This document shows, piece by piece, positions 398 through 10,409 of a stretch of DNA of 11,299 nucleotides. The notes beneath the pieces are model-generated. The model ran no database searches. It worked only from the letters and a program-made list of their open reading frames with translations, and was not told where the DNA came from. The stretch lies in assembly GCA_022826345.1 (NCBI GenBank), contig JAJDVB010000084.1:1-11299 (forward strand), given 5' to 3'. The position numbers were made by a program, and so were the translations under genes. Each line of letters opens with the position of its first letter. The first letter of the stretch is position 1. The stretch is from Alphaproteobacteria bacterium (GTDB lineage: Bacteria; Pseudomonadota; Alphaproteobacteria; UBA828).

Positions 398-429
398 ACC
401 GCCCGCGCTTAGCGCCGGGTGAGGCGCCG

Positions 430-1503
430 GTGACCCGCATCGACGACCGCTCGGTCGACGAGCGCATTCCCATCACCCTGCTCACGGGCTTCCTCGGCGC
501 CGGCAAGACCACGCTGGTCAACCGCCTGCTCAGCGCGCCCGACGCCGGCAAGATCGCGGTCATCGTCAACGAGTTCGGCGAGATCGGGATCGACGGCGAC
601 CTCATCGCCCGCGCCAACGAGGACATGCTGGAGCTCACCAACGGCTGCATCTGCTGCGCCGCCCAGGGCGACCTGATGGACGGGCTCAACCGGCTCTTCC
701 TGCGCAAGATCGGCCTCGCCGAGCCCCAAGTTGACTTCGACAAGATCGTGATCGAGACCACGGGCATCGCCGACCCCTCGCCGCTGGCCCGGCTCTTCTA
801 CACGGACATGAAGCTCGACCTGACTTTCCGTCTGGACGCGGTGCTGACGGTGGTGGACCTGAAGCACGTGACCGGCCAGATCGTGCGCTCGCCCGAGGCG
901 CAGAAGCAGATCGCCATCGCCGACAAGCTGATCTTCAACAAGCGCGACCTGGTGGACGGCGAGCAGTTCACCGATGCCGTGGCGGCGGTCGAGCGCCTCA
1001 ACCCCTTCTCGGTCAAGGAGGTGACCACGCACGGCGCGCTGCCGGTGAACCGGCTGCTCGACCTCGACCTGTTCGAGCCCAAGCGGCGGGACGACATGGT
1101 GGGCGCCTGGATCGGCGCCGACCGGCCGGATACCGCCGATCACGCCCGCGACGATCATGTCCATACGCCTGGCGTGGGCGCGGTCTGCCTGCAAAGCCGC
1201 GAGCCGCTGGAGTGGAACGCGTTGCTCCGCTTCTTCCTGGAGCTCACGGAGGAGAAGGGCGAGGACCTCTTCCGCGTGAAGGGCATGGTGCATTTCCAGA
1301 ACGTCGAGAAGCCGGTGATCATCCAGGGCGTGCAGGCCACCTTCAGCCCGCCGACCTATGCCGAGGCGTGGCCGCGCGGCGAGGTGGCGACGCGGATCGT
1401 GGTGATCGGCCGCGACCTCGACCGGGCATCGATGGAGGCGCGGTTTGCGGCCTGCGTGGCGAAGCGGGAAACCACGCTCGACCGCGGCCTCGGCGCCATC
1501 TGA
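430..1503 (+). CDS. COG0523 (CobW/P47K-type) GTPase, putative metal chaperone
   Basis: A 357-residue G3E-family GTPase. Visible motifs are Walker A GFLGAGKT (20-27), the VNEFG switch-like segment (46-50), the metal-binding CxCC motif C73-I-C75-C76, ETTGIADP (109-116), and the guanine-specificity motif NKRD (170-173). A short histidine-rich loop, DHARDDHVH (237-245), precedes the CobW C-terminal domain, as in many COG0523 proteins thought to deliver zinc or other metals. I chose the GTG at 430 because the GTPase domain begins 13 residues later. An upstream ATG at 121 in the same frame would lie inside the cyclase gene and encode arginine-rich out-of-frame sequence. It lies between a metal-dependent cyclase and an amidase, so it may metallate a hydrolase of this cluster. 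COG0523 also includes nitrile hydratase activators, but no nitrile hydratase genes are seen. Confidence 0.9.
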   Translation: MTRIDDRSVDERIPITLLTGFLGAGKTTLVNRLLSAPDAGKIAVIVNEFGEIGIDGDLIARANEDMLELTNGCICCAAQGDLMDGLNRLFLRKIGLAEPQVDFDKIVIETTGIADPSPLARLFYTDMKLDLTFRLDAVLTVVDLKHVTGQIVRSPEAQKQIAIADKLIFNKRDLVDGEQFTDAVAAVERLNPFSVKEVTTHGALPVNRLLDLDLFEPKRRDDMVGAWIGADRPDTADHARDDHVHTPGVGAVCLQSREPLEWNALLRFFLELTEEKGEDLFRVKGMVHFQNVEKPVIIQGVQATFSPPTYAEAWPRGEVATRIVVIGRDLDRASMEARFAACVAKRETTLDRGLGAI

Positions 1504-1528
1504 GCGGCCACCCGAACAGGAGCCATCC

Positions 1529-2923
1529 ATGAGCTTTGCGTACATGACGGCGAGCGAACTCAAGGGCCTGCTGGCGGCGCGCGATATCTCGCCGGTCGAG
1601 CTGGTGGAGGACACGCTCAGCCGTCAGGAGGCGCTGGAGTCCAAGATCAACGCCTTCGTCACCCGCACGCCCGAGGTCGCGCTGGAAGCCGCGCGCCAGG
1701 CGGAGCGCGCCATCGCCGCAGGCGAAGGCGGCGCGATTGCGGGCCTCCCCACCTCGGTCAAGGACCTGGTGGCGATGGCGGGCGTGCCCTGGACCTTCGG
1801 CTCCCGCCCCTTCGCGGACAACGTCGTGGACTTCGATGCGCCAGCGGTGGAGCGGGTGAGAGAGGCCGGCGGCTGCATCGTCGGCAAGTCCACCACCAGC
1901 GAGTTCGGCTGCAAGGCGGTCTGCGATAGCCCGCTCACCGGGATCACCCGCAATCCGTGGAACCTGGCGAAGACGTCCGGCGGCTCCAGCGGGGGCGGTG
2001 CCGCGAGCGTCGCCGCCGGGCTCACGCCCTTCGCGGTCTGCACCGATGGCGGCGGCTCTGTGCGAATTCCGTCCGCGCTCTGCGGGCTCTTCGGCATCAA
2101 GGGGCAGTTCGCACGGGTGCCGGTGCACCCGGTCTCGGCGGCGCCGACCCTCGCCCACGTGGGCGCGATCGCGCGGACGGTGCGGGACGCCGCGTTGTTG
2201 CTCGGCGTGATGGCTGGCCACGACCGCCGCGATGCCTTTGGCGTCGCCGAGCCCGTGCCGGATTTCGTTGCCGCCTGCGATGCGGGCGCGAAGGGCCTGC
2301 GCATCGCCTGGAGCCCCACCTTGGGCTACGCCGAGCCCGAGCCCGAGATCGTCGCCCTCTGCGAGGTCGCCGCCCGGCGCTTCGAGGCGCTGGGGTGCGA
2401 GGTCGAGCTGGTCGAAGACGCGCTCGGCGAAGACCCGGTCGAGATCTGGATGGCGGAGTTCTACGGCGGCATCGGCACCAAGCTGAAGGGCGTGATGACG
2501 GAGCGGCCGGAGGAGCTGGACCCCGCCGTGGTCACAACGCTCAGCGGTGGGCTGGACCGCTCGATGGTGGACTATTTCGGCCAACTCTTCGCCCGCTACG
2601 AGTTCCGCGAGAAGATGCGCCAGTTCTTCGAGCGCTACGACTTGCTGCTCTCGCCGACGCTGCCGTGCGCCGCCTTCGACGTGGGGCACGACACGCCGCC
2701 GGGGCTAGGCGCGCGCAACATCGTCTCCTGGGTCTACTACACCTATCCCTTCAACCTGGCCGGCCAGCCGGCGGCCTCGATCCCGGCGGGCTTCACCGAT
2801 GCCGGGCTCCCGGTCGGCCTGCAGATGGTGGCAGGGATCAACCGCGAGGTGGACATTCTGCGCGCAGCCGCCGCCTTCGAGGAAGCGGCGCCCTGGGCCG
2901 ACCGCCGGCCGCCTCTGGCCTAG
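1529..2923 (+). CDS. Amidase (amidase signature family)
   Basis: A 464-residue amidase-signature enzyme of usual family length, hydrolysing a C-N amide bond to an acid plus ammonia or an amine. The Ser-cisSer-Lys triad is intact: Lys78 in TSVKDL, cis-Ser153 in TSGGSSGGG (149-157), and nucleophile Ser177 in DGGGSVRIPS (173-182). The spacing of 24 residues between the two serines matches the family (as in FAAH and malonamidase E2). The ATG at 1529 has a good Shine-Dalgarno sequence, CAGGAG, 6 bp upstream. An in-frame ATG at 1445 lies within the GTPase gene and is rejected. The gene starts 25 bp after the GTPase and is followed 46 bp later by an isochorismatase-fold amidohydrolase, suggesting a shared operon. 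It could belong to the Glu-tRNA amidotransferase GatA lineage, but no gatB or gatC is adjacent, so a catabolic amidase is more likely. The substrate is unknown. Confidence 0.92.
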   Translation: MSFAYMTASELKGLLAARDISPVELVEDTLSRQEALESKINAFVTRTPEVALEAARQAERAIAAGEGGAIAGLPTSVKDLVAMAGVPWTFGSRPFADNVVDFDAPAVERVREAGGCIVGKSTTSEFGCKAVCDSPLTGITRNPWNLAKTSGGSSGGGAASVAAGLTPFAVCTDGGGSVRIPSALCGLFGIKGQFARVPVHPVSAAPTLAHVGAIARTVRDAALLLGVMAGHDRRDAFGVAEPVPDFVAACDAGAKGLRIAWSPTLGYAEPEPEIVALCEVAARRFEALGCEVELVEDALGEDPVEIWMAEFYGGIGTKLKGVMTERPEELDPAVVTTLSGGLDRSMVDYFGQLFARYEFREKMRQFFERYDLLLSPTLPCAAFDVGHDTPPGLGARNIVSWVYYTYPFNLAGQPAASIPAGFTDAGLPVGLQMVAGINREVDILRAAAAFEEAAPWADRRPPLA

Positions 2924-2969
2924 CCCGTACCGCCGGTCCGCCGCACAGCGCATAACGAGGGAGGCGGCG

Positions 2970-3656
2970 ATGCCGCTGGATGACGAGGTTCGCGAGGCGC
3001 TCGACACCATCTTTTCCGGGGATTCGGGGCTCTACAAGAATCGCGGCTGGAACCAGCGCTCGGGCTTCGGCACGCGGCCCGCGCTCCTCAACATCGACCT
3101 CGCCAACGCCTGGACCCGTCCGGGCCACCGCTTCTCCTGCGATGACATGGACGAGCGGATCATCCCCGGCGTGCAGCGCCTGCTCGCGGCGGCACGGTCC
3201 AAGCGGGTACCGATCATCTACACCACTACCGCCTTCTGCAGCCGCTTCGACATGGGCGCCTTCCCGCTCAAGAAGCCCTTCGAGGACCTGATGCTGGGCT
3301 CGCCCGCGACGGAGATCGACGACCGCGTGCCCCTGGAGGAAGGCGTCGACACGCTGATCGTCAAGAAGCGGCCGAGCGCCTTCGCCGGCACCCATCTGGG
3401 CGGCATCCTGCGGGCCGGCGGCATCGACACACTGATCTGCACCGGCGTCACCATGGCTAGCTGCGTCAGGCACACGGTGGAGGACGCGCTCGGCGAGGGT
3501 TTTCGGACCGTCATCGTCCGCGAGTGCGTGGGCGATCGCGTGTCGGCGGCGATCGAGTGGAACCTGTTCGACCTCGACATGAAGTACTGCGACGTCGAGC
3601 CACTTGAGCGGGTGCTCGCCTACCTCGCCGACCTGGAGCCCTTCGAGGAGCGCTAA
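2970..3656 (+). CDS. Isochorismatase-fold cysteine amidohydrolase (N-carbamoylsarcosine amidase-like)
   Basis: A 228-residue cysteine hydrolase. The Asp-Lys-Cys triad is visible: Asp43 in LNIDLANAW, Lys132 (or the adjacent Lys133) in VKKRPSAF, and Cys165 in GVTMASCVRHT. The N-terminal extension of about 35 residues (YKNRGWNQRSGFGTRPAL) before the catalytic Asp is typical of the N-carbamoylsarcosine amidase branch. That fold also contains maleamate amidase NicF and the RutB peroxyureidoacrylate hydrolase. The likely role is hydrolysis of a ureido or amide group of a pathway intermediate in the cytoplasm. The start is supported by GAGGGAGG (2957-2964), 5 bp before the ATG. Its TAA stop overlaps the TAG stop of the convergent pcm gene, and a hairpin follows directly. 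Family is firm; substrate is not. Confidence 0.9.
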   Translation: MPLDDEVREALDTIFSGDSGLYKNRGWNQRSGFGTRPALLNIDLANAWTRPGHRFSCDDMDERIIPGVQRLLAAARSKRVPIIYTTTAFCSRFDMGAFPLKKPFEDLMLGSPATEIDDRVPLEEGVDTLIVKKRPSAFAGTHLGGILRAGGIDTLICTGVTMASCVRHTVEDALGEGFRTVIVRECVGDRVSAAIEWNLFDLDMKYCDVEPLERVLAYLADLEPFEER

Positions 3657-4333
3657 GCCGTCCCGCGCGTAAGCGGGACGAACGCCACCGGCAGCACCGT
3701 CTTCGCCTCACATGAGCCGTCGGCGCGCTTCTCGAGGCGCTGCAGCTGCTGGGTCGCGCCGGACGGGCCGATGGGAATGACCAGGCACCCGCCGGGCTTG
3801 AGCTGCGCCACCAGCGCTGCCGGCACTGAGGGCGCTGCCGCAGTCACGATGATGCCGTCGAAGGGCGCTTCTTCCGGCCAGCCTGCGCGGCCGTCCCCGG
3901 CGCGGACCGTGGCCTGCGTATAGCCCAGCGCCGCAAGACGCGCCGCCGCCGCCGTCGCCAGCGGCTCGACGACCTCGACCGAATAGACGGTGGCGCCCAG
4001 CGCACAGAGGACGGCGGTCTGGTAGCCGCAGCCGGTGCCGACCTCCAGGATGCGCGCGCCGGGCCCGACATCGAGAAGCTCGGTCATCAGGGCGACGACG
4101 AAGGGCTGCGAGATGGTCTGGCCGTGACCGATGGGGAGCGGCCTGTTCTCGTAGGCGAACGGCTTCTCTGCCTCGGGCACGAAGGCCGCGCGCGGCACGG
4201 TGCGCATGGCCTCCATCACGGCGGCGCTGAAGACCGGCCGCCCGGTCTTGTCGCCGGTCTCCCGCGCGTCGCGCGCGATCGCCTCCAGCATAGTCTCTGC
4301 GGTCGCACTCGCGCCGAGCAGGTGGCGCAGCAT
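3653..4333 (-). CDS. pcm: Protein-L-isoaspartate O-methyltransferase
   Basis: A 226-residue SAM-dependent methyltransferase that methylates L-isoaspartyl residues of damaged proteins. Family-defining blocks are PIGHGQTISQP (67-77), the SAM-binding motif I LEVGTGCGYQTAVL (96-109, Cys where many members have Ser), the acidic end of strand 2, SVEVVEPL (118-125), and GDGRAGW (146-152). A Shine-Dalgarno-like GAGAGGGG lies 8 nt before the start. It is 24 bp downstream of the luciferase-like gene on the same strand and probably shares its transcript. It converges on the isochorismatase gene with overlapping stop codons. Its job is housekeeping repair, so its place in the cluster is probably incidental. 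Confidence 0.93.
   Translation of the reverse strand: MLRHLLGASATAETMLEAIARDARETGDKTGRPVFSAAVMEAMRTVPRAAFVPEAEKPFAYENRPLPIGHGQTISQPFVVALMTELLDVGPGARILEVGTGCGYQTAVLCALGATVYSVEVVEPLATAAAARLAALGYTQATVRAGDGRAGWPEEAPFDGIIVTAAAPSVPAALVAQLKPGGCLVIPIGPSGATQQLQRLEKRADGSCEAKTVLPVAFVPLTRGTA
3659..3680. terminator. Hairpin at convergent gene ends, possible bidirectional terminator
   Basis: CGTCCCGC (3659-3666) and GCGGGACG (3673-3680) form a perfect 8-bp stem with a 6-nt loop. It begins two bases after the isochorismatase TAA and lies inside the last codons of pcm. No T-tract follows on either strand, so it is not a canonical intrinsic terminator. It may act as a stem protecting 3' ends or help factor-dependent termination between the two converging operons. 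The structure is seen directly; the function is inferred. Confidence 0.4.
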
Positions 4334-4357
4334 CGTCTGCGCCCCTCTCCCGCCCCG

Positions 4358-5380
4358 CTAGCGAAGGTGCGGTATCACCTTGGTCGCGTACTCCGCGATG
4401 ATCCGTTCCTGGTCTTCCGTCATCAGGTAGAGCGCGAACTGCGTGACGCCAGCGGCCTCCAGCGCCTTGATCTTCTCAACGTGGGCCTCGGCCGGGCCGA
4501 TCACGCAGAAGGATTCGGTGATGGCGTCGGTGACGTAGTGCACGTTGTCCGAGCCCGCCACCGCGTGCTTGTGATAGTCGTAGCCCTCGTCCGCGCCGCG
4601 TCCCTGGCGGGCGGCGATGAACGCGGTCAGGCTCTCCGGCACCAGGTCCGTTCCCGCGCCGTGGCGTTCCACGATGTCGGCGACATGGTTGCCGACCACG
4701 GCGGGGAACCAGCTGGTCTGGGCGATGGCGGTCTCTCGGTCGCCGATCCAGGCCGGCGCGCAGGAGAGCACCCGGTATCCGGCCGCATCGAGGCCGGCGC
4801 CCTTGCGCGCCGCGATCGCCTGGCCAGCCATCCATTGGCAGAGCCCCGGATCGGCGAGCTGGATCACCAGCCCGTCTCCGTGTGCACCGGCGGCAGCGAG
4901 CGCGCGCGGACCGTAGGCCGCAATCCAGATCGGCAGCTCGTAAGGGTCGGCCCAGTCGTCGAGCTGGACCGGCCCCCTGGCACCGTCGTATTCGCACGCC
5001 TCGCCCCGCATCATGGTGCGGAGCGCGTCGCAGTATTCGGTGAGCGTCTGGACCGTCGCGGGACGATGGCCCATGACGCGCACCGAGCTGTCGCCGCGGC
5101 CCACTGCCACGTCGAGCCGGCCGTCGCCGAACTGGACCAGCCGCGCGAAGATGCTGGCCGCCACCGACCAGTCCCGCACCCTGGGGTTGGTCACCAGCGG
5201 CCCCACGCGGATGCGCTTCGTGTGGTCCAGGCAGACCGCCATCTGGGTGTAGACGTCGGACCACAGGATGTGCGAGTCCGCGAACCACATGTAATCGAAG
5301 CCGGCGGCCTCGGCCTGATGGGCAAGCGCGACGGTGCGGCGCACGTCGAGGTCGCCCTTGATGCTGATGCCCAGTTCCAT
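4358..5380 (-). CDS. Luciferase-like (LLM) flavin/F420-dependent oxidoreductase
   Basis: A 340-residue (beta/alpha)8 luciferase-like protein starting MELGISIKGDLDVRR. It resembles the TIGR03842 group, annotated as F420-dependent but also found in genomes not known to make F420, where FMN is the likely cofactor; that placement is from memory. Supporting segments are HQAEAAGFDYMWFADSH (21-37), RIRVGPLVTNP (56-66), DGRLDVAVGRGDSS (86-99), and AYGPRALAAAGAHGDGL (155-171), which is typical of the flavin/F420 phosphate-binding region. The ATG at 5380 has GAGGGGGG 4 nt upstream of it. A longer frame reaching 5605 would run into the divergent gene and is rejected. It leads a two-gene transcript with pcm and is divergent from another LLM monooxygenase. 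The substrate is unknown; dehydrogenation, ring reduction or monooxygenation of a pathway intermediate are all possible. Confidence 0.85.
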   Translation of the reverse strand: MELGISIKGDLDVRRTVALAHQAEAAGFDYMWFADSHILWSDVYTQMAVCLDHTKRIRVGPLVTNPRVRDWSVAASIFARLVQFGDGRLDVAVGRGDSSVRVMGHRPATVQTLTEYCDALRTMMRGEACEYDGARGPVQLDDWADPYELPIWIAAYGPRALAAAGAHGDGLVIQLADPGLCQWMAGQAIAARKGAGLDAAGYRVLSCAPAWIGDRETAIAQTSWFPAVVGNHVADIVERHGAGTDLVPESLTAFIAARQGRGADEGYDYHKHAVAGSDNVHYVTDAITESFCVIGPAEAHVEKIKALEAAGVTQFALYLMTEDQERIIAEYATKVIPHLR

Positions 5381-5549
5381 GATGCCCCCCTCATGCAGCG
5401 ACGATCGCAGCCCGACCGGAGGATGGCACAGTCGTGGCCTGCCCGCCACGCGCCGGGCAGGCACGTCTGCCAAACGCCCGCGCGCCGTGCTAAACCGCGC
5501 GCAGGCGGCGCCCGGCTCCGCCTCCCGGCCCCAGCGAGCGACGGCGAAC
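5381..5549. promoter_or_regulatory. Shared divergent promoter region between two LLM genes
   Basis: This 169-bp gap separates two divergently transcribed luciferase-like genes, so it must hold the promoter(s) for both. I see no convincing -35/-10 pair in the GC-rich sequence. A weak AT-containing patch, GTGCTAAACC, lies near 5488-5497, about 55 bp before the right-hand ATG. The clearest element is the inverted repeat listed separately (5437-5462). Co-regulation of the two genes is inferred from the arrangement. Confidence 0.55.
5437..5462. promoter_or_regulatory. 9-bp inverted repeat, candidate operator
   Basis: GCCTGCCCG (5437-5445) and CGGGCAGGC (5454-5462) are perfect reverse complements separated by 8 bp. 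A related CTGCC half-site follows at 5467-5471, which could pair alternatively with GGCAG at 5456-5460. The centre is about 70 bp from the left-hand start codon and about 100 bp from the right-hand one, a plausible place for a dimeric transcription factor. No regulator gene is in the window. A GC-rich palindrome by chance or an RNA hairpin are alternatives. Confidence 0.4.
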
Positions 5550-6884
5550 ATGAGCAAGCGGCAGATGGTCCTGGTGGGCTTCCTCCAGGCGCAGAACTGC
5601 TCCAACTACCCGGCGTCCTGGCGGCACCCGGAGTCCGCCACGGATTTCCTCACCGCCGACTACTACCAGCGCATCGCGCGCATTCTCGAGGCCGGCAAGT
5701 TCCACCTCGCCTTCTTCGACGACCGCCTCGCGCTACCGGACATCTACGGCGGCGACCATGCCGAGGCGGTGCGCAACGGGGTGCGCGTGGTCAAGATGGA
5801 CCCGATCCCCATCCTCACCCTGATGGGGGCAGCGACCACGCGGCTCGGCCTGGGCGCCACCTGCTCCACCACCTACTACCAGCCGTTTCACGTGGCGCGC
5901 ATGTTCTCCACCCTCGACCACATGAGCGGTGGCCGGGCGGCCTGGAACGTGGTGACCTCGCTCAACGATTCCGAAGCCGCGAACTACGGCGCGGACAGGG
6001 TGATCGAGCATAACGAGCGTTACGACCGCGCCGACGAGTTCATGGAGGTGGTGCTTGGCCACTGGGATTCGTGGGCGCCCGACGCCATCGTCCTCGACAA
6101 GGAGCAGAGCGTCTTCGCCGACCCGGCGGGGGTGAGACGCCTCGACCATGAGGGCCGCTTCCTGCGCTCACGCGGTCCCTTCACCGTGCCGCGCACGCCG
6201 CAAGGGCGCCCCATCGTGATCCAGGCCGGCCAGAGCGGGCGGGGGCGGCAGTTCGCGGCGCGCTGGGCCGACGTGATCTTCGCGATTTATCCCACCCTGG
6301 AGTTCGGCCGGAAGGCCTACGCGGCGACGCGGGAAGCCGCGATTGCCGCCGGCCGCGACCCGGACTCCTGCCGCGTGGCGCCGGCGGCCTATGTCACGGT
6401 GGCCGAGAGCCAGGCGGAGGCGGAAGAGAAGGCCGCCTTCATCGCGGGCCTCGCGCGACCCATCGACACGCTGGCGCTGCTTTCGGAAGCGCTCAACTAC
6501 GACTTCGCGACCAAGCCCGCCGGCGAGCCTTTCAGCGACGAGGAGATGGCCTCAATCAGCGGCCTGCAGGCGATCCGCGACCGCGTGGTGACGCTGAGTG
6601 GCAATCCGCACCCGACGGTCGAGGATTTCGTCACCTACACCGGGCGCGGGACGGTCAATGAGATGCCTCATTTCGTCGGCACGCCCGCCGTCGTCGCCGA
6701 CCAGATGGCGGAATGGTTCGAGGGCGAGGCCTGCGACGGCTTCGTGCTCGCCGCGACCCACATGCCGGGTGCCTACGAGGACTTCGCGCGCCTCGTGGTG
6801 CCCGAGCTGCAGCGCCGCGGCCTTTACCACGAGGACTATGCTGGGCCCACGCTCCGCGAAAATCTCGGCCTGCACGCGGCCTGA
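5550..6884 (+). CDS. FMNH2-dependent monooxygenase, NtaA/SnaA/DszA family
   Basis: A 444-residue luciferase-fold monooxygenase of the nitrilotriacetate monooxygenase component A type (family of NtaA, SnaA and DszA). It is longer than the simple LLM proteins, as usual for this group. Characteristic segments are the N-terminal LVGFLQAQNCSNYPASWRHP (8-27), EAGKFHLAFFDDRL (47-60), LDHMSGGRAAWNVVTSLND (122-140) and VIQAGQSGRGRQFAARWAD (223-241). Such enzymes use FMNH2 supplied by a separate reductase and O2 to oxidise a C-N, C-S or ring carbon. No reductase gene is seen here. The ATG at 5550 is in line with the conserved N-terminus; its ribosome-binding site is weak. It heads the right-hand plus-strand series and is divergent from another LLM gene. 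Family is sure; substrate is unknown. Confidence 0.9.
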   Translation: MSKRQMVLVGFLQAQNCSNYPASWRHPESATDFLTADYYQRIARILEAGKFHLAFFDDRLALPDIYGGDHAEAVRNGVRVVKMDPIPILTLMGAATTRLGLGATCSTTYYQPFHVARMFSTLDHMSGGRAAWNVVTSLNDSEAANYGADRVIEHNERYDRADEFMEVVLGHWDSWAPDAIVLDKEQSVFADPAGVRRLDHEGRFLRSRGPFTVPRTPQGRPIVIQAGQSGRGRQFAARWADVIFAIYPTLEFGRKAYAATREAAIAAGRDPDSCRVAPAAYVTVAESQAEAEEKAAFIAGLARPIDTLALLSEALNYDFATKPAGEPFSDEEMASISGLQAIRDRVVTLSGNPHPTVEDFVTYTGRGTVNEMPHFVGTPAVVADQMAEWFEGEACDGFVLAATHMPGAYEDFARLVVPELQRRGLYHEDYAGPTLRENLGLHAA

Positions 6885-6907
6885 CCGCATCCCCGCACGG
6901 GCTACGC

Positions 6908-6913
6908 TATATT
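6908..6913 (+). promoter_or_regulatory. Possible -10 element upstream of the GST gene
   Basis: TATATT differs from the TATAAT consensus at one position and stands out in very GC-rich DNA, 54 bp before the GST start codon in the 82-bp gap after the monooxygenase gene. No good -35 hexamer lies 16-18 bp upstream; CTGACC at 6881 is too far away. This would let the GST be transcribed independently of the upstream gene. Weak, sequence-only evidence. Confidence 0.25.
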
Positions 6914-6966
6914 CAGCGGGTCCATCGGCGCTAAGCTGTACGCTCGCAGATCACAGGGAGATTCCC

Positions 6967-7773
6967 ATGAGCACGAAGCTGCGCTACCTCCACCACCCCG
7001 CGTCCCAGCCGTGCCGCTCGGCGCGCCAGTTCATGGTCGAGAACGACATCGAATTCGAGGACGAGGTCGTCGACATCACCACGAACATCAACGAGACGCA
7101 GGAGTTCCGGGACACCTACAACCCCACCGGGCAGGTGCCGATCCTCGTCGATGGCGACTTCACCGTGTGGGAGAACGTGGCCATCGGGCGCTACCTCAAC
7201 GAGAAGTTCGAGTGCCCCGGCCACTGGTTCGGGCGGACCCTGCGCGAGCGGTCGCTGATCAACCAGTACGTGCAGTGGTACGCCTACACGCTGCGCCTCG
7301 GCGGAGGTGCGTTCCACTGGACCATCTTTGCGCCGTTCATCTACGGCGAGGACAAGGACTTCACCGCCGAGCGCCGGAAGGGCTACCACGTTCTCTATGA
7401 GTCGCTGGCAGTCATGGAGGACTACTGGCTCAAGGACCGCGACTATGTGTGCGGCGACGAGGTCAGCTACGCCGATCTCGCCGGCTTCCACGAGATGGTC
7501 TCCCATCACGCGGGCAAGATCATTCCCGACAAGGTTTGGGACAAGCACCCCAGGGTCACGACGTGGTTCGAGAGGATGTCTGAGCGCCCGGCCAGCAAGG
7601 CCGTGAGCGAGTGGCAGTACAACGCCGTCGGCGCGATTCTCGCAGGCGAGCTCAAGGTCGAGTTCAATCGCAGAACCGCCGTGCTGAAGGGCACCGAGGC
7701 CTACGGCGGCCACAACCGCGGGATTCCTCACCTGGACGAGGCGGACGACTACATCGCAGAGGTCGAGGCCTAG
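6967..7773 (+). CDS. Glutathione S-transferase closely resembling dichloromethane dehalogenase (DcmA)
   Basis: A 268-residue theta-type GST: thioredoxin-fold domain about 1-85, helical domain about 95-230, then a C-terminal tail. As I recall the Methylophilus DM11 DcmA sequence, matching blocks include STKLRYLHHPASQPCR (2-17), YNPTGQVPILVDGDF (51-65), WYAYTLRLGGGAFHWTIFAP (104-123) and the tail segment TAVLKGTE. Ser13 (Ser12 without Met) is the expected GSH-activating serine and Trp118 (Trp117) a substrate-pocket tryptophan of DcmA. DcmA converts dichloromethane with glutathione to formaldehyde and chloride. WEN (68-70) replaces the usual WES at the GSH site. AGGGAG lies 6 bp before the ATG. 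No dcmR, dcmB or dcmC neighbours are seen. The GST identity is certain; dehalogenase activity is a reasoned hypothesis. Confidence 0.9.
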   Translation: MSTKLRYLHHPASQPCRSARQFMVENDIEFEDEVVDITTNINETQEFRDTYNPTGQVPILVDGDFTVWENVAIGRYLNEKFECPGHWFGRTLRERSLINQYVQWYAYTLRLGGGAFHWTIFAPFIYGEDKDFTAERRKGYHVLYESLAVMEDYWLKDRDYVCGDEVSYADLAGFHEMVSHHAGKIIPDKVWDKHPRVTTWFERMSERPASKAVSEWQYNAVGAILAGELKVEFNRRTAVLKGTEAYGGHNRGIPHLDEADDYIAEVEA

Positions 7774-7780
7774 GCCTAGG
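7769..7780. repeat. AGGCCT tandem / 12-bp palindrome at GST stop codon
   Basis: CCTAGGCCTAGG is a perfect 12-bp palindrome that includes the TAG stop of the GST gene. It is part of a 2.5-fold tandem of AGGCCT (7766-7780). There is no loop or T-tract, so it is not a terminator. It could be a chance product of GAG-GCC-TAG followed by a short duplication. No function is claimed. Confidence 0.3.
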
Positions 7781-7889
7781 TCGTCGTCGCACGTTAGATC
7801 GCAAGCTGGGGCGCCCCGTTTCGCCGGCCGAACGACAGTTCGCGCCGTAGCGGCATCGGGCGCCCCCCGCACCCTCACGAAGTATTCCG

Positions 7890-8885
7890 ATGGAATTGGC
7901 ACGAAAAGTTCAAGCCGACCCGGTGTGTACCGGAGAGTTCACCTACCTGGCGCCGTCCGTAGAGAGCTCGCTCTACGGCAATGGCAAGGTGTTCATGCGC
8001 CGGGACAGCGACGGCAACGACAGCCCTTGGGAAGGCACCGATCTGGAAAAGCGGCGGATGCAGGTCCATGACGCGCGCAGCCTGGCGGGACCGCAACGCC
8101 GCACCCTCGATGCCAATGGTTTCGAGCTGATCGAACGCCCCATCGGCGGGCCGGACATCGACTTCTTCGACCATGACGAGATCGTGCGCCGCTACTACCC
8201 GCACTGCGCCGCTGCCGTTCGGGACAAGACGGGCGCCCGCCTGGTCGCGGCTTTCGATCACAATATCCGTTCGGTCTCCGGTAATCGCAGCGGGCGCCGC
8301 ATCGAAGGCGGGCAGCAGGTGCAGCCGCCGATCCACATGGTGCATGGCGACTACACGCTGACCAGTGGACCGCGCCGCCTGCGCGATCTGGCGAAGGCAC
8401 CGACCGGCAACGACACCTATCGCACGGTGCTGGCTGAGGGTGAGTCGCTCCTCGACGAAACGGATGTGGCGCAGGCGCTGGGGGAAGGCCGCTTTGCGAT
8501 CATCAATCTCTGGCGGAACATCGCCGCGGAGCCCGTGGCGACCGAGCCGCTCGGGCTCTGCGATGCCGCCACGGTGCATCCCGACGATCTCGTGGTCTTC
8601 GAGGTCTTCTACAGCGATCGGACCGGCGAGAACTACCTCGCGAAACACGCCGATGCTCACCGCTGGTATTGCTATCCCGCGCTCACCCGCGACGAAGCGC
8701 TGCTGATCAAGCAGTGGGACTCCGCCGGCGGTCTGGCGCGTGCGCAGGGCGCGAAGGCGGACGCGGAGAGCCCTAAGACCCCTTGCACCTTCAGCTTCCA
8801 CACCGCCTTCGAGGACCCGACGGCGCCTCCGGATGCCCCCGATCGCTGGAGTATCGAGGTGCGCTGCGTCGCGCTTTACGGTTAG
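7890..8885 (+). CDS. CmcJ/NvfI-family non-haem iron oxygenase/oxidoreductase
   Basis: A 331-residue protein of the family that includes CmcJ (cephamycin C biosynthesis), fungal NvfI (endoperoxide synthase) and GA4 desaturase-like proteins. Recognisable segments are AAFDHNIRSV (119-128), HMVHGDYT (149-156) with the H152-x-D154 facial-triad pair, INLWRN near 205, and KHADAHRWYCYP (252-263), followed by DEALLIKQWDS. The distal iron-ligand histidine is probably His253 or His257. Such enzymes are Fe(II)-, and often 2-oxoglutarate-, dependent. An in-frame TAG at 7848 limits the start to the ATG at 7890, whose ribosome-binding site is poor. It sits 116 bp after the GST and 57 bp before the HpaB-type gene. 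In this catabolic setting it may hydroxylate or desaturate the substrate. Family placement is from remembered motifs. Confidence 0.8.
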   Translation: MELARKVQADPVCTGEFTYLAPSVESSLYGNGKVFMRRDSDGNDSPWEGTDLEKRRMQVHDARSLAGPQRRTLDANGFELIERPIGGPDIDFFDHDEIVRRYYPHCAAAVRDKTGARLVAAFDHNIRSVSGNRSGRRIEGGQQVQPPIHMVHGDYTLTSGPRRLRDLAKAPTGNDTYRTVLAEGESLLDETDVAQALGEGRFAIINLWRNIAAEPVATEPLGLCDAATVHPDDLVVFEVFYSDRTGENYLAKHADAHRWYCYPALTRDEALLIKQWDSAGGLARAQGAKADAESPKTPCTFSFHTAFEDPTAPPDAPDRWSIEVRCVALYG

Positions 8886-8902
8886 TTGCTCTCCGCATCC
8901 GG

Positions 8903-8936
8903 CCGGTCCCGATCGGACCCGGAATCGGACTATGAT
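8903..8936 (+). promoter_or_regulatory. Imperfect inverted repeat plus -10-like TATGAT before the HpaB-type gene
   Basis: CCGGTCCCGATCGGACCCGG (8903-8922) is a near-palindrome around CGATCG with one unpaired base per arm. It is followed by TATGAT (8931-8936), one mismatch from TATAAT, ending 6 bp before the ATG at 8943. If TATGAT is a real -10 box, transcription would begin at or next to the start codon, giving a leaderless mRNA. No clear -35 box is seen. Speculative. Confidence 0.2.
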
Positions 8937-8942
8937 GAGCGC

Positions 8943-10409
8943 ATGAACGTGAAAGACGGTGCCGCGCACCTGCGCGCTCTCGACAAGGACCGGGTGGTCT
9001 ATCTCGACGGCCAGTTGATCAAGCGCGTCGCCGACCATCCGGCCTTCGCCGCCGCCTGCCGCTCGGCTGCCGCTCTCTACGACTTCCAGGCGGCCGCCGA
9101 GAACGTCGAGCGCATGACCTTCGAGACCGGGACCGGCCGCCGCGCGAACCGCGCCTGGCAGATGCCGCAGAGCTATGCCGAGCTGGTCGCGAGGCGCGAG
9201 GCGCTCACCGCCTGGGCCCAGCTTCACGCGGGCTTCCTCGGCCGCTCGCCCGACCACCTCGCCTCCTCCATCGCGGGCCAGGCGATCGGGATCGAGGTCT
9301 TCGAGCGCCACGGCGCACGCCACGCCCATGCGCTCCGCGACTACTACGCCTACGCGCGCGATAACGACCTCTACCTCACCTACGTCATCATCAACCCGCA
9401 GGGCGACCGCTCCAAAGCATGGGGCGAGCAGGAAAGCGAAGAGATGACCATGCGGGTCGTCGACGAGGACGCGGAAGGCGTGACCGTGCGCGGCGCCAAG
9501 ATGCTCGGCACCGGCTCGGTCATGGCCGAGGAAATCCTGGTCGCGAACCTGCAGCCGCTCAAGCCGGGCGAAGAGCGTTTCGCCATCTCCTTCGCGCTCC
9601 CGCTCGATGCCCGCGGCCTCAAGGTGCTCTCGCGCAAGAGCTACGAGGCGAGCGCCGTCAGCGCCTGGGACAACCCGCTCTCCCACCGCTTCGATGAGAA
9701 CGATTCCGTCGTCTACTTCGACGACGTGAAGGTGCCGTGGGAGCGCATCTTCGTCTTCGGCGACACCGACATGTGCCGGGCGCAGTTCCACGATACGCCG
9801 GGGCACGTCTTCCAGAACTACCAGTCGCAGATCCGGCTGGTGGTGAAGCTCAAGTTCTTGCTGGCGGTTGCGCGTCGCATCGCCGAGACCATCGGCACCG
9901 CCAGGATGCCGCCGGTGATGGGGCAGCTCGGCGAGATGGCGGCCGAGGTTGCGGCCGTGGAAGGGCTGCTCTACGGCATGGAGAGCGCGGGCGGCATGGT
10001 GGGCGAGCACTACGTGCCCAATGCGAGCATGATGTACGCAGCCCAGGTGCAGACCCAGGCCCTCTACCCACGCCTGATCGACGGGATCCGCTCTCTCGCC
10101 GGCGGCGCGCTGATCATGCTGCCGTCCTCGGCGGCGGACCTGGACAACCCCGACATCGCGCCGCTGATCGAGCGCACCCAGGTTTCCTCGCGACCCGGCG
10201 AGGGCGCTGCCGAGCGGATGGCGTTGATGAAGCTTGCCTGGGACGCTGTGGGTTCCGAGTTCGCCAGCCGCCACACCCAGTACGAGATGTTCTACGCGGG
10301 CGCCAAGTTCGTCACCACCGCGCACTGCTTCAGGCGTTACGACTGGGCCGGCGCCGACCGCATCCTGGCGGGGCTGATAGCCGGTAACGAAGGCTCCGGC
10401 GCGCCGTGA
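8943..10409 (+). CDS. HpaB-type FADH2-dependent monooxygenase (4-hydroxyphenylacetate 3-hydroxylase family)
   Basis: A 488-residue member of the HpaB family (N-terminal acyl-CoA dehydrogenase-like part about 1-275, C-terminal helical part about 280-480). Diagnostic segments are DRVVYLDGQLIKRVADHPAF (15-34), TYVIINPQGDRSKAWGEQ (146-163), the FDDVKVPWERIFVFGD strand-loop (260-275) and the C-terminal QYEMFYAG motif. These enzymes hydroxylate aromatic or heteroaromatic rings with O2 and FADH2 from a separate HpaC-type reductase, absent here. Tyr147 stands where I recall a substrate-contacting His in HpaB (THxxxNP), suggesting a substrate other than 4-hydroxyphenylacetate. ATG 8943 was chosen over an in-frame TTG at 8886, which adds a non-conserved leader; the ribosome-binding site is weak. 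Its TGA overlaps the GTG of the enamidase-like gene, implying translational coupling. Confidence 0.9.
   Translation: MNVKDGAAHLRALDKDRVVYLDGQLIKRVADHPAFAAACRSAAALYDFQAAAENVERMTFETGTGRRANRAWQMPQSYAELVARREALTAWAQLHAGFLGRSPDHLASSIAGQAIGIEVFERHGARHAHALRDYYAYARDNDLYLTYVIINPQGDRSKAWGEQESEEMTMRVVDEDAEGVTVRGAKMLGTGSVMAEEILVANLQPLKPGEERFAISFALPLDARGLKVLSRKSYEASAVSAWDNPLSHRFDENDSVVYFDDVKVPWERIFVFGDTDMCRAQFHDTPGHVFQNYQSQIRLVVKLKFLLAVARRIAETIGTARMPPVMGQLGEMAAEVAAVEGLLYGMESAGGMVGEHYVPNASMMYAAQVQTQALYPRLIDGIRSLAGGALIMLPSSAADLDNPDIAPLIERTQVSSRPGEGAAERMALMKLAWDAVGSEFASRHTQYEMFYAGAKFVTTAHCFRRYDWAGADRILAGLIAGNEGSGAP

Follow-up and report, generated by a model that had tools for sequence, protein, structure and literature searches.

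To our knowledge, the origin of dcmA, the gene of the dichloromethane (DCM) dehalogenase, is an open question. The 11,299-nucleotide stretch of DNA analyzed here (the window), from an Alphaproteobacteria bacterium, encodes a DcmA-like glutathione S-transferase (GST), which the earlier note had described as lying outside any dcm cluster, among monooxygenases and amidohydrolases. This locus raises the question of whether the gene belongs to the DcmA family, whether it stands alone, and what its product may do. The features under discussion are collected in Table 1.

Table 1. Coordinates of the features in the window and, in the last row, in related loci
Feature	Position	Strand	Remarks
CobW GTPase	412-1503		
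Amidase	1529-2923		
Isochorismatase-type hydrolase	2967-3656		
TIGR03842 LLM oxidoreductase	4358-5380		
NtaA/DmoA-family flavin monooxygenase	5544-6884	+	TIGR03860, 485 bits; ends 82 bp before the GST gene
dcmA-like glutathione S-transferase	6967-7773	+	Intact ORF, 268 aa
Ser13 codon (Ser12 without Met)	7003-7005	+	Column invariant in a 47-row alignment
His117-Trp118, DcmA-clade markers	7315-7320	+	The sister clade has FFY or FFF here
TAVLKGTE tail	7675-7698	+	TAVL versus TSLA divides the DcmA clade from the sister clade
dcmB-like gene, CmcJ/NvfI family	7890-8885	+	331 aa; NF041278, 225 bits (cut-off 80)
HpaB-type flavin hydroxylase, downstream	8943-10409	+	PF11794/PF03241
CaiB-type CoA-transferase and nitrilase beside dcmA(B)	L028 9769-11945; L030 4292-7051; L006 7379-10796		

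Identity and phylogeny of the DcmA-like GST

The window GST contains GST_N and GST_C domains and shared 165 of 265 residues (62%) with its DM11 counterpart (P0049, Methylophilus leisingeri DcmA). As the earlier note had proposed, the two proteins have in common the N-terminus, the TAVLKGTE tail, and, between them, the WYAYTLRLGGGAFHWTIFAP block. The two proteins also share a near-identical length and the FHW block, whereas the window GST, compared by protein only, falls in a separate, well-supported subclade. DcmA of a Hyphomicrobium-type cluster (L062), of the DM4 type that occurs in Hyphomicrobium and Methylobacterium, showed 66% identity to the window GST and, like it, has a dcmB homologue next downstream, but it is 288 aa long with a longer N-terminus. 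Among about 5.8 billion proteins searched, 657 were candidates, and 199 of these matched at E 1e-10 or better; of the best 120 of the 199, the top one was a relative with 93% identity. The AlphaFold model of the GST (mean pLDDT 89.2) showed a theta-type fold, with human GSTT2 and GSTT1 as its best PDB matches.

Ser13 is presumably the glutathione (GSH)-activating serine of theta-type GSTs and DcmA, and His117-Trp118 are taken here to be substrate pocket residues. Among 145 collected proteins, the block holding positions 117-118 was FHW in 52, FMW in 1, and FFY or FFF in 91, with 1 chimera. W118 was paired with TAVL in 51 rows (two further W rows had no alignable tail), and Y or F at position 118 was paired with a TSLA tail in 91 rows. 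One protein, P0144 (309 aa), joins a DcmA-type C-terminal part to predicted methyltransferase domains; it is a fusion or an assembly chimera and fits neither pattern. The window GST has the complete DcmA marker set (W118 with TAVL, Ser13, His117-Trp118, and TAVLKGTE), and the FFY/FFF block and TSLA tail of the sister theta-like GSTs were not found in it. It also has all the residues that divide 26 DcmA-type from 21 sister rows (Y105, Y107, G113, W118, F132, W216, F233, and A238-V239-L240). The proposal that ordinary theta GSTs lack the TAVLKGTE tail was correct for TAVL, which is specific, but not for the tail as a whole, since TSLAKGTE-like tails occur in the nearest other GSTs (91 of 145).

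The phylogenetic analysis placed the GST in the DcmA clade, the opposite outcome to the tree far from DcmA that would have spoken against the DcmA reading. Tree 1, built from 48 DcmA-type and 16 sister rows, separated DcmA from sister proteins at 100/100, and its DcmA side comprised a DM11 subclade (13 rows), a DM4-type subclade (8 rows), and the window subclade (27 rows). Tree 2 (50 rows, 13 of them sister rows, with locus-derived proteins and L062 DcmA) repeated this split at 100/100 and recovered all four groups again, none with support below 100/98, with the window clade sister to the DM4 type at 97/83. The alternative of a DM4 plus DM11 clade without the window was not rejected by the AU test (p 0.092). 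Judged by its sequence, the GST thus is inside the DcmA clade and lies either within the DM4/DM11 span or just beside it. The trees support the proposed membership in the DcmA family and the value of this lineage for the question of DcmA origin.

As a measure of DcmA frequency, matches were counted in genome samples, with the centre genome included whenever it matched. For P0041, there was 1 match among 385 genomes in the class of G005 (G005 itself), there were 7 among 397 in its order (five DcmA-type, including G005, and two sister-type), and there was 1 among the 103 genomes of the G705 family. For P0049, the one match among 369 genomes in the class of G004 was G004. For P0001, 3 of the 21 genomes in the G001 family matched (G001-G003), as did 1 of the 17 in the G004 family (again G004). 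The window group is a real DcmA lineage, of which we found no earlier description in the literature searched. A predicted dcmA in one Binatota genome (Bin18), also of an uncultured lineage, resembles the window gene by description alone (PMC8262859).

The GST gene is under purifying selection, with dN/dS values of 0.057-0.075 against L001-L004, 0.136 against L005, and 0.174 against L006. GC3 (0.922) is like that of the neighbors, in line with the unchanged base composition noted before, although total GC (0.638) is the lowest among the 11 genes measured. Among 72,556 plasmid records, there were 217 matches, all below 60% identity (24-31% in the best 20 of the 217), and two scans of viral sequences gave no relative.

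The dcmB-like neighbor and the classical dcm cluster

Contrary to the earlier claim, the gene does not lie outside any dcm cluster: a dcmB homologue was found directly downstream of it. Its product was 56% identical to L062 DcmB over 320 aa and, from sequence, is a predicted Fe(II)/2-oxoglutarate dioxygenase. His152, Asp154, His304, and Arg319 were invariant in 28 rows, L062 DcmB included; by assignment from the family, they would be the iron and 2-oxoglutarate residues. The best of five models (pLDDT 82.1; range 47.7 to 82.1) matched the endoperoxidase NvfI and CTB9 (E 3e-23 to 4e-19). The fold and the HxD...H residues are common to the CmcJ/NvfI/CTB9 dioxygenases and the window protein; however, it is only 24% identical to NvfI and belongs to a bacterial 331-aa subfamily. 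In the dcmB tree, L062 DcmB was on a long branch, and the GST-linked copies did not form one clade against the unlinked paralogues. The close CmcJ paralogues L036-L040 (64-74%), from G001-G005, had no DcmA-type neighbor in the stretches fetched and point to a large bacterial dioxygenase subfamily. According to a 2020 paper, the closest annotated relative of DcmB is a cephalosporin hydroxylation/methyl-transfer protein at 30% (PMC7760279, citing work on a two-protein cephem methoxylase); another paper gives the function of DcmB as unknown (PMC12750041).

For comparison, a methanol dehydrogenase query was used to find methylotroph genomes holding a real dcm cluster. The G705 copy (L044) was closest to PDB 2d0v, which we take to be a Hyphomicrobium enzyme, and G1212 was the sole genome with a DM4-type dcmA among 103 in the family of G705. 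The G1212 cluster (L062) has the order dcmR (MEDS domain), dcmA, dcmB (NF041278, 204 bits), followed by an ORF where dcmC would be expected, and it is flanked by IS701 and IS256 transposases, one per side. The 56% match of its DcmB, together with this layout, indicates that the window holds a dcmA-dcmB pair in the classical order and orientation. In contrast to L062, neither dcmR, a dcmC-position ORF, IS701, nor IS256 was found in the window. No exact copy of the published dcm promoter motif GATC(C/G)ATAGCCT was found in 12 stretches, and, since it was missing even from L062, this search was uninformative. By eye, a variant, GATG(C/G)ATAGCCT, occurs at two places in L062 7227-7916.

Related loci, regulator, and insertion sequences

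Ten window-type loci (L001-L006 and L028-L031) were compared. The CmcJ gene adjoined the GST gene on the same strand in seven of the nine decidable loci (L001, L002, L003, L005, L028, L030, and L031), being frameshifted in L002 and cut by the contig end in L031. It was missing in L004 and L006, and the contig of L029 ends before that position. L001 and the window showed 88-92% DNA identity in three long blocks, and L002 showed 85.5% over the pair. Only the pair was kept from the window genes in L002 and L005, save a distant amidase match (27%) in L002, and the GST was the sole window match in L004, labelled a Gammaproteobacteria metagenome-assembled genome (MAG). Synonymous divergence from the window was 0.34 for L004 and 0.34 for L002, whose genome is of one family with those of L001 and L003. 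This equal divergence, despite the label of another class for L004, points to transfer or a misbinned contig.

Each of five genomes had only three to five CmcJ matches, pieces included. Because the pair is kept while its flanks change and CmcJ copies per genome are few, a chance adjacency of dcmA and dcmB is not credible. The orphan reading is ruled out by the adjoining dcmB homologue.

No dcmR match was found in the window by tblastn at E 1e-3. L001-L004, the four closest relatives, come from MAGs of unstated completeness (G001-G004), and these gave none at E 1e-10. A DcmR homologue (MEDS and HTH) was located divergently upstream of the GST gene in L005, L006, L028, L029, L030, and L031, an arrangement also seen in DM4-type strains. 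The window gene is thus no orphan amid unrelated genes: it has a dcmB-like partner, and in 6 of 10 relatives dcmR adjoins the corresponding gene. In 7 of 11 whole genomes, a DcmR match at E 1e-10 adjoined dcmA; G005 has a second, distant match elsewhere. For dcmC, tblastn at E 1e-3 gave no match in the window, nor did any of 19 other fetched stretches, some of them overlapping, yield one, and a dcmC-like ORF was seen only in the IS-flanked, Hyphomicrobium-type L062 cluster.

The absence of a regulator or transposase near the gene, as first noted, was borne out for the ten other window genes scanned; for insertion sequences, this covers the 7 kb upstream and 3.5 kb downstream that the window contains. 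No transposase was found among the scanned neighbor genes (a subset) of L005, L006, L028, L029, and L030. From the dcmRABC layout, the window thus has dcmB downstream of dcmA but not the divergent dcmR, dcmC, or flanking insertion sequences.

By eye, the dcmR-dcmA intergenic regions of L005, L028, L029, L030, and L031 share a similar AT-rich stretch near TATACTTTCCTGTCGTTTGATTGACAATG, which might be a candidate DcmR operator. This stretch was not seen in the 82 bp before the window GST gene.

The simplest reading would be an old dcmR-dcmA-dcmB module, from which the window lineage lost dcmR and to which the solvent-degrader lineage added dcmC and insertion sequences. We infer the loss of dcmR, rather than its gain, because members of the window clade and the DM4-type cluster alike contain it.

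Proposed function and origin of the pair

The reading we favor, with moderate confidence, is that the window carries a regulator-less dcmA-dcmB pair from a dcmRAB module, encoding a putative GSH-dependent dehalogenase of the DcmA family and a DcmB-like dioxygenase. The most likely chemistry of the GST, by analogy, would be GSH-dependent dehalogenation of a dihalomethane. Ser13 would activate glutathione, and the thiolate would attack a carbon of the dihalomethane type, positioned close to His117/Trp118, and displace a halide from it. The resulting S-halomethyl-glutathione would hydrolyze to formaldehyde, GSH, and two halides, as in characterized DcmA. The second gene would supply the predicted Fe(II)/2-oxoglutarate dioxygenase. 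The pair would descend from a dcmR-dcmA-dcmB module and, with dcmR presumably lost, would probably rely for its expression on a neighboring or otherwise unplaced promoter and not on the classical DcmR switch. This explanation is supported by the homology, clade position, gene order, conserved residues, and purifying selection described above and by the lack of a dcmR match in the closest genomes. The position of the pair outside an IS-flanked dcm island, the lack of a dcmB neighbor in L004 and L006, the AU result for a DM4 plus DM11 clade, and a dcmB tree that did not show orthology count against it.

The formaldehyde genes of the hosts agree weakly with a formaldehyde-making GST. A formaldehyde marker was present in all 11 genomes: GSH-dependent formaldehyde dehydrogenase was over the cut-off in 9, and fae was present in the other 2 (G004 and G1212). 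In G004, fae and the GST gene share a contig (C6; L069 3968-9361, L034 9904-10731) and are approximately 15 kb apart. By eye, fae adjoins ORFs resembling ftr, mtdB, and mch. Among 14 control genomes, the dehydrogenase was over the cut-off in 3 and gave some match in 13, and fae was over its cut-off in 1. The link is weak because this dehydrogenase is common in the controls.

A different, less probable possibility is that, in hosts other than solvent degraders, enzymes of the DcmA clade take part in a longer catabolic route, which would act on some other compound, halogenated or reactive with GSH and probably of natural origin. Its successive steps would fall to the GST, the dioxygenase DcmB, a CoA-transferase of the CaiB type, another GST, and a nitrilase; DCM use would have been recruited later, leaving dcmB and the nitrilase of DCM degraders as relics. 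The gene order in L028 is dcmR, dcmA, dcmB, CaiB-type CoA-transferase, and nitrilase, and that in L030 is dcmR, dcmA, dcmB, LysR, CaiB, second GST, nitrilase, and a GFA-family protein; L006 has the L030 order without a dcmB match (GFA left aside). The dcmA(-dcmB)-CaiB-nitrilase set is thus common to L006, L028, and L030 (CaiB 74-78% and nitrilase 68-79% to L028), and L006 and L030 also share the second GST (62%) and the LysR gene (48%). This set may be an ancestral pathway. As its CaiB and nitrilase are not needed for dihalomethane use, it counts against a dihalomethane dehalogenase. A nitrilase is reported to lie near dcmRABC in DM4 and beside a dcmC relic in MC8b (PMC7760279), and an IS-broken GST is reported in the DM4 dcm region (PMC2680597). 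However, tblastn at E 1e-10 gave no orthologue-like match for CaiB, nitrilase, second GST, or LysR in the window, the L005 nitrilase is more distant (40%) with no CaiB match there, and neither CaiB nor nitrilase was matched in the 20-kb stretch around L062.

A local operon is improbable, in which the GST would act with the NtaA-type and HpaB-type monooxygenases to degrade an aromatic or heterocyclic compound. The four co-directional genes from 5544 to 10409 have short gaps, and the same block recurs in L001 and L003. The NtaA gene was kept upstream in these two, with no match in the stretches L002, L004, L005, L006, L028, and L030, and the HpaB-type gene, among L001-L006, was kept only there. 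L002 and L005 keep the pair with no match to either monooxygenase in the stretch, and L004 has the GST match only. The NtaA gene is a possible source of read-through transcription into the GST gene. The window genes from 412 to 5380, near the pair, have an amide/heterocycle catabolic look. The least probable of the readings, an ordinary theta GST that detoxifies but does not dehalogenate, is in line with the theta fold and the breadth of the GST family but is opposed by the DcmA-side position in the 100/100 split, the clade-diagnostic residues, the dcmB linkage, and the sister-type loci L032 and L033, whose stretches gave no CmcJ or DcmR match (only 430 bp upstream in L033).

The favored regulator-less pair suggests that dcmA-dcmB may be older than the mobile cluster of the solvent degraders. 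dcmRAB looks like an old module later mobilized for solvent degradation, with the window as a regulator-less derivative and its pair possibly a remnant of an older pathway. No description of dcmR-dcmA-dcmB outside DCM degraders was found in the literature searched, a search that mostly left subscription papers aside. A more tentative proposal, which we think rather unlikely, is that dcmRAB is an ancient module of an unrecognized natural-organohalogen pathway (GST, 2-oxoglutarate dioxygenase, CaiB-type CoA-transferase, and nitrilase) in uncultured Alphaproteobacteria and that the DCM cluster is an IS-captured fragment of it; this would account for the strong expression on DCM of dcmB, a gene not needed there. 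The loci described here are related to the mobile dcm cluster, share its gene order, and add a third subclade of DcmA. They also offer a candidate for the ancestral set of genes, with which it can be tested directly whether an enzyme for solvent degradation was recruited from a natural pathway.
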